From a virus, in IMG/VR virus record IMGVR_UViG_3300046714_000370, positions 1 through 37,802 of that record: a stretch of DNA of 37,802 bases; one strand, given 5' to 3'. Both the position numbers and the translations under genes were made by a program. The notes beneath the pieces are model-generated. The model searched no databases. It was given only the letters and a program-made list of their open reading frames with translations, and was not told the origin of the DNA. This document shows positions 1 through 37,802 of this stretch, in pieces (positions within the stretch are counted from its first letter, which is position 1; every line of letters begins with the position of its first letter).

Positions 1-127
1 TCGGCTCAGGCTAGTGTTAGTTAGCACTCACTAACGTCGGCTCGGCCGAGCGCGCGCGCACGGAAGTTAGTTAGCACTTACTAACGTTACCATGGATGGC
101 CGAAACCAGGGCTCGACACATTAGCGA
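1..127. repeat. Terminal direct repeat, left copy
   Basis: Bases 1-127 are identical to 37676-37802. A 127-base exact overlap equals a common maximum assembler k-mer, so this most likely marks a circular assembly graph (a circular or circularly permuted molecule) and not a physical terminal repeat. It contains two of the 20-bp iterons and a perfect 12-bp palindrome, GCTCGGCCGAGC, at 40-51. Confidence 0.95.
16..85. repeat. Iterons 1 and 2 (20-bp near-palindromes)
   Basis: Two copies of the consensus GTTAGTTAGYRCTYRCTWAC occupy 16-35 and 66-85, separated by a GC-rich palindromic block. Each copy is an imperfect dyad (GTTAGT at one end, ACTAAC at the other), typical in form of a protein-binding site. 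They also appear at 37691-37710 and 37741-37760 in the terminal repeat. Confidence 0.9.
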
Positions 128-9785: not shown

Positions 9786-9815
9786 GCTTCTGTAGTATAA
9801 CACTTGGAGAGCGAA

Positions 9816-10550
9816 ATGGAAATAGAGTTGGGGATGAACTATAATTCGAAGTGCGCACTGGCAATAGAGCAAAGCGAGCACCAGTATGACGTGGTAAACA
9901 TTGAGGCGCATGGGCTGGAGTATCAGTCCATGAGCCGCAGTAACTTTCTCCGGGAGTATTACAGGGACATCCTGGAAGAACAGTGGATTGTGCTTTGCAA
10001 GTTCCTGAAAGTAGCAATGATGAAGGACGGTAACAATCCCGTTGCCGTTCAGATACTTATGAAAGGACTGGAAATGAAGTTGAAAGAACTGAAGGACAAG
10101 TCGATGGCTGAGCTGGTCGAGATGTATAACCCGCTGGCCAAAGCGGCAGGCAAGAAGGAACTGACGAAGTTCAAGACGCTCGAGGCAGGGCGCCTGGAAA
10201 TCGTCAAGCTGGCCAATGCCAAGCCGAAGACGGCTTCCGGCGAAAGCAAGGGCACCGGCACGGGTCGTGCGCGCCTCGGTATCGGCGTGTTCGCCAAGGA
10301 CTTGCTGCGGGCTGGCAAGTCGGTCGCGGATACGTTCGAGGCAGTGCGCAAGAAGTTCCCTACCGGCCAGACCACGAAGGCGTGCATCAGCTACTACAAG
10401 AACGCACTCGTCAAGGCGGGCGACCTGAAGAGCGGCCGCACCGAGAAGACCGCCAAAGAGAAAAAGAAGGTCAAGAAGGTGAAAGCCGCCAAGACCGTCA
10501 AACCCTCGGCACCGGCACAAGAACCTGCACAAGACCCCATACAGCAGTAG
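9816..10550 (+). CDS. Basic DNA-binding-like protein with domain shared with 328-702
   Basis: The 244-aa product has an N-terminal alpha-beta region (1-95), a helical segment with LVEMYNPLA followed by a lysine-rich stretch (about 95-140), and a GIG...AK...EAVRKKF...TTKACISYYKNAL domain (about 155-205). It ends in a Lys, Ala and Pro-rich tail. The 155-205 domain matches residues 71-124 of the first gene of the genome. I use ATG 9816, which follows TTGGAGAG; an upstream TTG in frame overlaps that site. It is the first gene after P3. Chromatin-like or regulatory binding is a guess from its composition. Confidence 0.8.
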   Translation: MEIELGMNYNSKCALAIEQSEHQYDVVNIEAHGLEYQSMSRSNFLREYYRDILEEQWIVLCKFLKVAMMKDGNNPVAVQILMKGLEMKLKELKDKSMAELVEMYNPLAKAAGKKELTKFKTLEAGRLEIVKLANAKPKTASGESKGTGTGRARLGIGVFAKDLLRAGKSVADTFEAVRKKFPTGQTTKACISYYKNALVKAGDLKSGRTEKTAKEKKKVKKVKAAKTVKPSAPAQEPAQDPIQQ

Positions 10551-10600: not shown

Positions 10601-10918
10601 ATGACTAAAGAAGAGTTTATGAAGACGGCCGAGGTCGTGGCCAACTTGGTGGGCAAGAAGCACCAGGACTACCAAGCAGGGCAGGCATCGCTCGAGGACT
10701 ACTTCGCCTTTCATCACTACAGCTATGTCCAAATGCTATGGGTCAAGATGCTGCGGCTGTTGAGCCTTACCCGCAAGCGTGAAACAGGCGTTGAGCCCGT
10801 ATTTGAAGGTATTAAAGACACTTGTATTGACCTCATCGCCTACGGCGTTTTCTATTTGGCGTTCTTGCTCAAGTATGAAACCAGGTCTGACCATAAGGAA
10901 AGGAGAGAACATGAATAA
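10601..10918 (+). CDS. DUF1599-like, nucleotide-modification-associated protein
   Basis: The 105-aa all-helical product shows KKHQDYQAGQ near the N-terminus, a central FHHYSYVQMLWVKMLRL and a C-terminal GIKDTCIDLIAYGVFY. This is the layout of DUF1599, also called nucleotide modification associated domain 1, as I recall it. That family tends to be encoded next to thymidylate synthase homologues, which is exactly the context here: its last 8 bases overlap the start of the next gene. It has a good ribosome-binding site (TTTGGAG). Its biochemical activity is unknown; I infer involvement in the pyrimidine nucleotide pathway. Confidence 0.7.
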   Translation: MTKEEFMKTAEVVANLVGKKHQDYQAGQASLEDYFAFHHYSYVQMLWVKMLRLLSLTRKRETGVEPVFEGIKDTCIDLIAYGVFYLAFLLKYETRSDHKERREHE

Positions 10919-11774
10919 CTGGGAATTAGACTATATCAACCTGGTCTCTGACGTCATCAAGTATGGCGTCCCGCATGAGACCAGGGTCGGTATGGCGCAT
11001 GCAGCGCTTGGCACGGGGCTGTCGATCAAGGTCGCCGATGGCGAGTTCCCTCTGCTCACCACCCGCAAGCTGTTCTACAAGCCGGTATTCGGGGAGCTGA
11101 CGGGATTCTTGATGGGTTCTGCCCATAACTTTGACTTCACCAGTAACGGCTGCAACTACTGGACGCCCAATGCACGTGCCTGGGCCGAGAAGGTGTATGG
11201 TGAACGTGCCAAGGACATCGCCGATGAAGACCTGCCTGTGGGTCATATCTACGGATATCAATGGCGCAGATGGGCTGTCAAACCTGGTTTAGGCTTTGAC
11301 CAGTTGGCCGAAGCGCAACGCCTTATAAAGAAGGAACCTAACTCCAGGCGTATCATGGTAACAGCATGGGAACCGGCAGACCTTCATAACATGTGCCTGC
11401 CGCCTTGCCATACACATTTCCAGTATCATGTGCTCGGCGACAAGCTGCATTGCAGCGTGTATATGCGCTCGGTGGATTTGTGCCTCGGCCTGCCTGCCGA
11501 CATCACGCTCTACTACGCCCTGCTGATTCTGATGGCGAAGGATTGCGACATACTCCCCGGCACGCTGCATTTTCACTTCGGCAATGCACATGTGTATGCC
11601 GACCATATCGTGCCGTTCCTGGAGCAGCAGCCACGTGTCATCAAAGCACCGCCCGTCTATTGGCTGCAGGCTATAGAGCATGGTGAACGCTATATAGATG
11701 ACTTCAAGCCCGACCTGCTGAAGATAACGGAGTATGAGCCTGCCGACGCCATCAAATACGAGCTGCTAGTATGA
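10911..11774 (+). CDS. Thymidylate synthase homologue, probable dCMP (hydroxy)methylase
   Basis: The 287-aa product has the thymidylate synthase fold signatures: catalytic C166 in LPPCHTHFQ, R186-S in the phosphate loop and LGLP before the nucleotide-binding residue. That residue, exactly 31 positions after the catalytic Cys as in E. coli ThyA (C146, N177), is Asp (D197, LGLPADI) and not Asn. Asp at this position is the known determinant of cytosine over uracil recognition, found in T4 dCMP hydroxymethylase (C148, D179) and in engineered Asn-to-Asp synthases. The likely substrate is therefore dCMP and the product 5-methyl- or 5-hydroxymethyl-dCMP. The start at 10911 follows AAGGAGAG and overlaps the previous gene; its stop overlaps the MazG-like gene. 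Confidence 0.9.
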   Translation: MNNWELDYINLVSDVIKYGVPHETRVGMAHAALGTGLSIKVADGEFPLLTTRKLFYKPVFGELTGFLMGSAHNFDFTSNGCNYWTPNARAWAEKVYGERAKDIADEDLPVGHIYGYQWRRWAVKPGLGFDQLAEAQRLIKKEPNSRRIMVTAWEPADLHNMCLPPCHTHFQYHVLGDKLHCSVYMRSVDLCLGLPADITLYYALLILMAKDCDILPGTLHFHFGNAHVYADHIVPFLEQQPRVIKAPPVYWLQAIEHGERYIDDFKPDLLKITEYEPADAIKYELLV

Positions 11775-12187
11775 GCACATACAAAGACCCGCCAAGCATG
11801 TTCGCCCAAGTCAAGGAGTTCCAGAAAACCGTGCTAAACAACTGGGGTGCCAAACCGCCGTCTGTCCTGAGCTTTGAAGAGTCGATGTATCTGGTCAAGT
11901 GCGTGAACGAAGAGCTTGCCGAGTTCAAAGACGCGCGGCTGTCTGGAGACCTAGCAGGTATGGCCGACGCACTTGCCGATGCCATCTACTTCCTGCTGGG
12001 TTTCGCCGCCAAGATGGGCCTGCCGTTTGACGAAATCTGGGACATTGTGCATGAGGCCAATATGCAGAAGGTGGCAGGCAAGACCAAGCGTGGCATGCCG
12101 AACGATGCGGCTAAACCACCTGACTGGAAAGACCCTAAAGACAAGATAAAGGAGCTGCTCTATGGACCAGACCCGACCCTCGATTGA
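11771..12187 (+). CDS. MazG/PRA-PH-like nucleotide pyrophosphohydrolase
   Basis: The 138-aa all-helical protein has the metal-binding pattern of the MazG/HisE superfamily: E47-E48-x2-E51 (NEELAEF) and D66-x3-D70 (DALAD), then an NMQK motif near residue 114. Members hydrolyse nucleoside triphosphates to monophosphates plus pyrophosphate. Lying directly after the dCMP-type thymidylate synthase homologue (ATGA overlap) and before dCMP deaminase, it could act as a dCTPase. It would then supply dCMP and lower unmodified dCTP, as T4 gp56 does. The substrate is inferred from context only. Confidence 0.88.
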   Translation: MSTYKDPPSMFAQVKEFQKTVLNNWGAKPPSVLSFEESMYLVKCVNEELAEFKDARLSGDLAGMADALADAIYFLLGFAAKMGLPFDEIWDIVHEANMQKVAGKTKRGMPNDAAKPPDWKDPKDKIKELLYGPDPTLD

Positions 12188-12590
12188 CCGCGTGATGCTC
12201 AACATCGCGGTGTGCCTCGCCCAACGCGCGACGTGCTACAAGCTCGCCGTAGGGTGCGTTCTAACCGACCATGACGGCAGGATACTATCGGCAGGCTACA
12301 ACGGGAAGCCGAAGGGCTTCACGCATTGCCTGACGAACAGGTGTGACGGCGACGTCTGTCTCGCCACGCATGCGGAGACCAATGCCCTCATGTCGTGCCG
12401 TGGCATGCAGTCCATACACACCTGCTACACGACGCACTCGCCTTGCATGTCCTGTGTCAAGCAGCTGATTCAGACCAACTGCCGGCGTATCATCTATATG
12501 CATGAGACGCCGGAGATATTGCTCGCGCATCGCCATTGGCAACATGCTGGGCGTCAATGGTTTCAGTATAAACACGAGTTAAAAAGTTGA
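12162..12590 (+). CDS. dCMP deaminase family protein
   Basis: The 142-aa zinc deaminase shows H70-A-E72 (HAETNAL) and P-C95-x2-C98 (SPCMSC), the zinc ligands and catalytic glutamate, with the GYNG substrate loop typical of deoxycytidylate deaminases. It would convert dCMP to dUMP, feeding thymidylate synthesis by the host enzyme. With a neighbour that probably uses dCMP, the two compete for one pool, as in T4, where both cd and gene 42 are encoded. It overlaps the MazG-like gene by 26 bases and has its own site (AAGGAG). Confidence 0.92.
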   Translation: MDQTRPSIDRVMLNIAVCLAQRATCYKLAVGCVLTDHDGRILSAGYNGKPKGFTHCLTNRCDGDVCLATHAETNALMSCRGMQSIHTCYTTHSPCMSCVKQLIQTNCRRIIYMHETPEILLAHRHWQHAGRQWFQYKHELKS

Positions 12591-26661: not shown

Positions 26662-27360
26662 CTATTGCTTCGTCTTGCGACGAACAGTGAAGCCAAGGCC
26701 CATCAAGCCTAAACCCAGCAGGGCCAGCGAACCAGGCTCAGGGACATTGACAGCGTTCGGGAAGGCAACGAGATAAAAACTCTCGCCACCATCCGAAGCG
26801 CCTGACCATTGAGCGCGAAACAACAGACGGTCGCCGATGTTTACGCTTGACAAGTCAAAGCCAGTTAGCAGGTAATCGCCCTTACCGTTGCCATTGAAGA
26901 TGTCCGGCAAAGCGATAGGCCCATCGATGTCGAAGATAATCTTCTGGCCGAGCGGCTTATCCAGGTCAATCAGCTGGAATGTCTGCAGAGTTTCACCTCC
27001 ATGCGCCGTATTGATATCGATGGCAATGCCAAACGTGAAGAGTGGGTCGCCAGCATTCTGAAGAAACGTGCGCAGAAACCCAGAGGTATATGGCGTGACA
27101 TTGATATCGTCGTTGTTGCCAAATGCACCCGTGATGGCCGAGGAAAACAGGTTGAAGCTGCTGTCATTCCCTTGACTGTCAAAGTTGTTAAAGCCAAAGC
27201 CGGCGGGGTTCTGCGCCTGTGTAGCGCAAATCACGCAGGGATTGCTGGACGACTGCGGCACCGGGTTTGGCAATGCCGACAACGTCAAGTTATTGATGGC
27301 GTCTGCGTGCGCCAATGCTGCCATCAGAGCAAGGCCTGCTGCAAGTAGTAACTTCTTCAT
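26662..27360 (-). CDS. Secreted PEP-CTERM sorting-domain protein
   Basis: The 232-aa product begins with a Sec signal peptide (MKKLLLAAGLALMAALAHA, cleavage likely after residue 19). A short C-x2-C (C42, C45) follows, then a polar, mostly beta ectodomain with NTAHGGETLQTFQL and DYLLTGFDLS. The end is a canonical PEP-CTERM tripartite tail: V-P-E-P (206-209), a hydrophobic helix (about 211-225) and a basic end (RRKTKQ). In bacteria, exosortase cleaves this tail and moves the protein to the exterior, often with exopolysaccharide. The phage encodes no exosortase, so it depends on the host enzyme. Its late position and flanking hairpins suggest an acquired accessory gene. AAGGAG precedes ATG 27360; a longer frame upstream crosses the hairpin. 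Confidence 0.9.
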   Translation of the reverse strand: MKKLLLAAGLALMAALAHADAINNLTLSALPNPVPQSSSNPCVICATQAQNPAGFGFNNFDSQGNDSSFNLFSSAITGAFGNNDDINVTPYTSGFLRTFLQNAGDPLFTFGIAIDINTAHGGETLQTFQLIDLDKPLGQKIIFDIDGPIALPDIFNGNGKGDYLLTGFDLSSVNIGDRLLFRAQWSGASDGGESFYLVAFPNAVNVPEPGSLALLGLGLMGLGFTVRRKTKQ

Positions 27361-27379
27361 GCTTGTTCTCCTTAAAGGT

Positions 27380-27401
27380 GCTGAGGGCCGAAGCCCCCAG
27401 C
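27380..27401 (-). terminator. UUCG-loop hairpin between capsid and PEP-CTERM genes
   Basis: On the minus strand, GCTGGGGGC-TTCG-GCCCTCAGC gives a 9-bp stem (one G-T pair) capped by a very stable cUUCGg tetraloop. No T-run follows (ACCTTTAAGG), so it may act as a partial terminator or protect the 3' end of capsid mRNA. Confidence 0.6.
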
Positions 27402-27414
27402 GGTTTGACAACTG

Positions 27415-37675: not shown

Positions 37676-37802
37676 TCGGCTCAGGCTAGTGTTAGTTAGC
37701 ACTCACTAACGTCGGCTCGGCCGAGCGCGCGCGCACGGAAGTTAGTTAGCACTTACTAACGTTACCATGGATGGCCGAAACCAGGGCTCGACACATTAGC
37801 GA
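37676..37802. repeat. Terminal direct repeat, right copy
   Basis: This is the exact second copy of bases 1-127. Removing it gives a 37,675-bp circle in which the control region upstream of the first plus-strand gene is continuous with the region upstream of the minus-strand operon. Confidence 0.95.

Follow-up and report, generated by a model that had tools for sequence, protein, structure and literature searches.

Four overlapping genes on the plus strand of the viral record IMGVR_UViG_3300046714_000370 encode, in this order, a DUF1599/Nmad1-like protein, an Asp-type thymidylate synthase homologue, designated TS(Asp), a MazG-type pyrophosphohydrolase, and a dCMP deaminase. The record is from a virus of bacteria, and its entire length of 37,802 nt was analyzed (the window). 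The TS(Asp) gene (10911 to 11774) starts with ATG, overlaps the gene upstream by 8 bp, and encodes a protein of 287 amino acids. A longer frame could be opened from a GTG at 10779; the N-termini of the homologues agree with the ATG at 10911. Residues 7 to 286 of TS(Asp) cover the whole PF00303 domain (E = 6.1e-67), and the protein scored 183 bits against TIGR03284, whose cut-off is 108. TS(Asp) is thus a member of the ThyA/dCMP hydroxymethylase superfamily.

The first gene of the operon (10601 to 10918) encodes a 105-amino-acid protein resembling DUF1599, also called "nucleotide modification associated domain 1". Its PF07659 score of 22.2 bits is slightly under the cut-off of 25, and PF07659 was matched by 10 of the 13 DUF1599-like homologues from Asp-type operons (best E = 4.6e-7). 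K20, D23, Y24, Y34, F35, S41, Y42, M45, K49, R52, E69, D73, D77, and Y81 are invariant among the DUF1599-like proteins. In a structural search of the PDB with an AlphaFold2 model of moderate confidence (pLDDT 77), the top two matches were iMazG, and several dCTPases, including mouse dCTPase with 5-Me-dCMP, were also retrieved; since all of these matches had E values above 1, they give only a hint of a MazG-like fold. A sequence profile of the protein gave no significant match in the PDB, and a literature search on DUF1599 and phage base modification found no paper naming DUF1599. The third gene (11771 to 12187), joined to that of TS(Asp) by an ATGA overlap, encodes a MazG/PRA-PH type nucleotide pyrophosphohydrolase of 138 amino acids (PF01503, E = 2.4e-14), a probable dCTPase. 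It matched phrog_671 and phrog_18404, and its relatives in the PDB are DR2231 and other MazG-type pyrophosphohydrolases. The fourth gene (12162 to 12590) overlaps the MazG gene by 26 bp, and its product of 142 amino acids has the HAE and PCxxC zinc motifs of a dCMP deaminase (PF00383, E = 2.4e-17); its best relatives in the PDB are the dCMP deaminases 4p9c, 2hvv, and 1vq2, the last from T4.

An exact direct repeat of 127 bp is found at both ends of the window (1 to 127 and 37676 to 37802), as in a circular or complete assembly, and probably arose where a circular assembly overlaps itself. The genome is therefore probably complete at 37,675 bp. Megablast revealed no close relatives among phages, and the highest protein identity to phages was 37%. 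TS(Asp) is the only thymidylate synthase in the genome. Neither ThyX nor a DNA C5-methyltransferase was detectable in this probably complete genome, and DHFR, a thymidylate kinase-type enzyme, and dUTPase were likewise not detected, so that several steps must depend on host enzymes. The protein encoded among the virion genes at 26662 to 27411 on the minus strand begins like a signal peptide and carries a PEP-CTERM sorting motif (PF07589) at its C-terminus; this is unusual for phages and points to a host that has an exosortase. Two PHROG families of unknown function, phrog_17205 and phrog_38698, match both of the plus-strand proteins encoded at 328 to 702 and at 9804 to 10550, which may have a common domain; the related contig L026 has a protein of similar size at the matching place upstream of its operon.

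Alignment placed the catalytic nucleophile C166 at codon TGC (11406 to 11408) and D197, in the motif LGLPADI, at codon GAC (11499 to 11501). D197 corresponds to N177 of E. coli ThyA and D179 of T4 gp42. The initial annotation had pointed to a spacing of 31 residues between these positions, and the alignment bore this out: the spacing is the same between C146 and N177 of E. coli ThyA and between C148 and D179 of T4 gp42 (numbering of PMC6400193). The change of the preceding residue, F176 in E. coli, to A196 was likewise correctly noted. In addition, E. coli position 165, a Gln in ThyA, is occupied by Met. The equivalents of R21, E58, Y94, R126, R127, R166, S167, D169, H207, and Y209 are all kept, as are H147 and Leu143 (E. 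coli positions), and the protein ends in IKYELLV. An AlphaFold2 model of TS(Asp) (pLDDT 95.1) was superimposed over its full length on thymidylate synthases with Z of about 36.

The IMG/VR collection was scanned by motif for the two versions of the enzyme, giving 120 loci of the Asp version and 120 of the Asn version, and all enzymes found were aligned. The two samples were drawn by separate patterns, and their counts are therefore no measure of natural relative abundance. Met165 was found in 53 of the 126 Asp-type viral enzymes and in none of the 118 of the Asn type. At position 176, a residue other than Phe was present in 122/126 Asp-type enzymes and 4/118 Asn-type enzymes, Phe occupying this position in the remaining 4 and 114, respectively. 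His147 was kept in 58/126 and 117/118, respectively. Similarity to the query retrieved 80 cellular ThyA proteins, every one of which has H147, Q165, F176, and N177, and cellular Asn-type ThyA proteins were the sole matches in a pattern scan of genome contigs. The window enzyme has Asp at 177, Met165, and a non-Phe residue (Ala) at 176, a pattern of change like that of the Asp-type phage enzymes. Given the invariance of the cellular proteins, this joint change at positions 165, 176, and 177 excludes chance as the explanation of the Asp.

A phylogenetic tree was built with the trait columns 147, 165, 176, and 177 removed. TS(Asp) fell into a clade of eight phage enzymes that all have Asp (the window enzyme with L026, L091, L113, L051, L036, L131, and L021) with a support of 94/89, the bootstrap value being slightly under the level at which the tool stars a branch. 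Placement of TS(Asp) in the ThyA clade, comprising cellular and phage enzymes, was rejected (AU p = 0.0036); the initial annotation had named such a placement as an outcome that would refute its reading. A single clade of all Asp-type enzymes was also rejected (AU p = 4e-9), indicating that the switch of specificity arose more than once in phages, and at least four changes were located on starred branches. The window enzyme and the enzymes of the Xp12 group (PaMx28 and AXL1) were separate in the best tree, and a joint clade of the two was not rejected (AU p = 0.22).

It has been described that the N-to-D change at position 177 turns thymidylate synthase into a dCMP methylase (PMC8670742 and references therein), and that T4 dCMP hydroxymethylase requires D179 (PMC6400193). 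Published N-to-D mutants prefer dCMP, in keeping with the initial annotation, which took from established work that Asn-to-Asp switches specificity from dUMP to dCMP. For TS(Asp) itself, the Asp residue, the correlated changes in the active site, the grouping in the tree, and the operon it has in common with the Xp12 group all point to the same specificity, and its main substrate is very probably dCMP. TS(Asp) might instead be a conventional thymidylate synthase in which Asp is tolerated and dUMP is still converted to dTMP, and the TIGR03284 score, the structural Z value, the retention of H147 and Leu143, and an adjoining dCMP deaminase that would supply dUMP are all compatible with this. However, the invariance of Asn177, Phe176, and Gln165 in cellular relatives, the coordinated changes at these three positions in TS(Asp), the exclusion from the ThyA clade, and the behavior of the published mutants speak against such an enzyme and make it very improbable.

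The genes around the enzymes were compared using non-redundant loci flanked by 2 kb or more, loci that had been selected for MazG being left out. At least one of the partners (dCMP deaminase, MazG, and Nmad1) was encoded within 2 kb on the same strand at 10 of the 18 Asp-type loci and at none of the 9 Asn-type loci (Fisher p = 0.009). dCMP deaminase was the most frequent neighbor of Asp-type enzymes (9/18 versus 0/9). The four genes have an identical order in L026, where they lie downstream of the same replication genes as in the window, whereas a second group (L023, L037, L058, L071, and L123) has the order MazG, DUF1599, TS(Asp), and deaminase. In the Xp12 group, represented by PaMx28 and AXL1, a single MazG-DUF1599 protein is encoded directly upstream of TS(Asp) and deaminase. 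These fused proteins are annotated as the "hydrolase" phrog_18404 (38778 to 39575, minus strand, in PaMx28, L006; 7561 to 8334, minus strand, in AXL1, L008), annotations that omit the DUF1599-like second half. DUF1599/Nmad1 is thus tied to one type of operon in separate lineages and fused to MazG, which suggests a function in the control of the dCTP pool.

We propose, with a probability of roughly 0.6, that TS(Asp) is a dCMP C5-methylase in a dCTP-pool operon and that 5-methylcytosine replaces cytosine in the DNA of this phage. The sequence, fold, operon, lineage, and co-occurrence on which this reading draws were observed directly; from them we infer the substrate, the product, the roles of the partners, and the presence of 5-methylcytosine in the virion. 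MazG would convert dCTP to dCMP, thereby removing normal dCTP and supplying the substrate, and the DUF1599 protein would probably serve as a partner of MazG or as a second pyrophosphohydrolase domain. The Asp at the base-recognition site would protonate N3 and help the binding of cytosine, retargeting the enzyme from dUMP to dCMP; TS(Asp) would then form 5-methyl-dCMP with methylene-tetrahydrofolate, most likely by the hydride transfer of ordinary thymidylate synthases. Host kinases would phosphorylate 5-methyl-dCMP to 5-methyl-dCTP, which the phage family A polymerase would place in the DNA instead of cytosine, as in phage Xp12. Part of the dCMP would be converted by dCMP deaminase to dUMP for the thymidylate synthase of the host. 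The active site and the operon shared with relatives of Xp12 make it probable that virion DNA contains modified cytosine.

The initial annotation had left the product as either 5-methyl- or 5-hydroxymethyl-dCMP. Modification of dCMP is supported, and the choice could be narrowed to methyl as the likelier product. The ternary structure of T4 gp42 provides a signature of hydroxymethylation, in which the third residue ahead of the catalytic Cys is acidic and a Ser/Thr-x-Tyr pair is present (PMC6400193); this signature is based on few tested enzymes. In the window enzyme, the acid is replaced by Leu163, and the T4 pair S94-x-Y96 by His-Ile-Tyr, with Ile at the position of T4 Ser94. Enzymes of the Xp12 group also lack an acid three residues before Cys. 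Because this signature is absent and the enzyme keeps a thymidylate synthase-like tail ending in Val, which is missing from T4 gp42, 5-methyl-dCMP is predicted to be the product, and methylation probably prevails over hydroxymethylation. If TS(Asp) were a dCMP hydroxymethylase, water rather than hydride would attack the methylene intermediate to yield 5-hydroxymethyl-dCMP, as in T4, with which TS(Asp) shares the Asp and the spacing of 31 residues. Furthermore, a 5-hydroxymethylcytosine carbamoyltransferase occurs with Asp-type thymidylate synthases on contigs of the MetaGPA study (PMC8670742), from which it appears that some Asp-type enzymes other than that of T4 probably hydroxymethylate. In addition to the replaced signature and the retained tail, however, no sugar or carbamoyl transferase was recognized among the window proteins scanned, and a search for the MetaGPA carbamoyltransferase beside all loci gave only two weak matches, both at Asn-type enzymes and none at an Asp-type locus. 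Hydroxymethylation by TS(Asp) is therefore possible but rather doubtful.

The co-occurrence with dCMP deaminase is also what would be expected of a cytosine-first route to thymidylate, in which TS(Asp) forms 5-methyl-dCMP and the neighboring deaminase converts it directly to dTMP. With the enzyme pair in place of a synthase that depends on dUMP, 5-methylcytosine would not have to be present in the DNA; the lack of an Asn-type thymidylate synthase and of ThyX in a probably complete genome is in accord with this route. On the other hand, the MazG/dCTPase and the existence of a relative with an equal gene set and known 5-methylcytosine favor base replacement, and the cytosine-first route is quite unlikely. 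An arrangement in which 5-methyl-dCMP is split between thymidylate synthesis and the replacement of cytosine, and in which the DUF1599 protein directs how nucleotides are distributed, is similarly unlikely.

It had also been suggested that modified cytosine serves this phage to evade restriction. The observed/expected ratio (O/E) of C-containing 4-bp palindromes at non-redundant loci was 0.935 for Asp-type and 0.768 for Asn-type phages (p = 1e-5; GC-adjusted t = 4.3), a comparison that includes 16 Asn-type loci after redundancy removal and is made between different viruses with unmatched hosts and lifestyles. AT-only palindromes, used as an internal control, gave 0.972 and 0.945, respectively (p = 0.21). 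The weaker avoidance of C-containing palindromes in Asp-type phages fits modified cytosine at the level of the group. The window was off this trend, with ratios of 0.837 for C-containing and 0.827 for AT-only palindromes, and palindrome statistics were accordingly rejected as proof of modified cytosine in this phage. GTAC does not occur in the window (1 to 37802), although 76.5 occurrences were expected from the 2- and 3-mers of the genome itself, and is the most depleted of the 256 tetramers; GATC occurs 51 times versus 115 expected. GTAC is not avoided in L026. The equal avoidance of C-containing and AT-only palindromes and the absence of GTAC indicate that restriction pressure is not fully lifted by modification: if the cytosines are modified, a residual pressure remains on GTAC and GATC. 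AXL1 DNA is resistant to most restriction enzymes, and the few enzymes with C-containing sites that have been reported to cut it in part include KpnI (GGTACC). One may speculate that this partial cutting is compatible with a GTAC nuclease that tolerates 5-methylcytosine. Evasion of restriction through modified cytosine may apply to the window phage, although its own palindromes show no relief and GTAC has been eliminated from it.

The kind of system proposed here, a dCMP-modifying thymidylate synthase homologue with nucleotide-pool genes, is already known, and the window adds another example. It provides a well-supported dCMP-type homologue beyond the enzyme lineages of T4 and Xp12, and if 5-methylcytosine does replace cytosine, a compact phage of 37.7 kb would obtain substituted DNA by means of four small genes. 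Overall, ThyA resembles TS(Asp) more closely in sequence and fold than T4 gp42 or the Xp12-type enzyme does, which, like the retained H147, counts against the proposed methylase. It shares with E. coli ThyA the fold, the catalytic residues, the C-terminal Val/Ile tail, and the Leu three residues before Cys, and differs in having Asp, Ala, and Met in place of Asn177, Phe176, and Gln165. The features common to TS(Asp) and T4 gp42 are the Cys148/Asp179 spacing, the Met preceding the conserved Arg-Ser, and the expected substrate, dCMP; the two sequences are very distant, equivalents of Asp145 and Ser94 are absent from the window enzyme, and only the latter has the thymidylate synthase-like tail. 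In the MetaGPA study (eLife 2021), the excerpts of PMC8670742 describe Asp177 thymidylate synthases in a neighborhood of PRA-PH and dCMP deaminase on cytosine-modified contigs, and both Asp177 and neighbors with PF01503 and PF00383/PF14437 domains recur in the window. These excerpts do not mention DUF1599, which is present in the window operon, whereas a carbamoyltransferase was not recognized in the window and His147, lost in many Asp-type enzymes, is retained. Phage Xp12 (MT664984), for which PaMx28 and AXL1 stand in here, has 5-methylcytosine in place of all cytosines. As in the window, its group (Pamexvirus/Bosavirus: PaMx28, DLP4, and AXL1) combines TS(Asp) in one cluster with MazG, dCMP deaminase, and a DUF1599-like domain, but MazG and DUF1599 are fused, the latter forming the C-terminal half, and DHFR is present. 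Its enzymes have Pro147 and Tyr176 and lack the Leu three residues before Cys, whereas the window enzyme has His, Ala, and Leu. The window system is most likely a dCMP methylase of a separate enzyme lineage, combined with nucleotide-pool genes like those of the Xp12 group.
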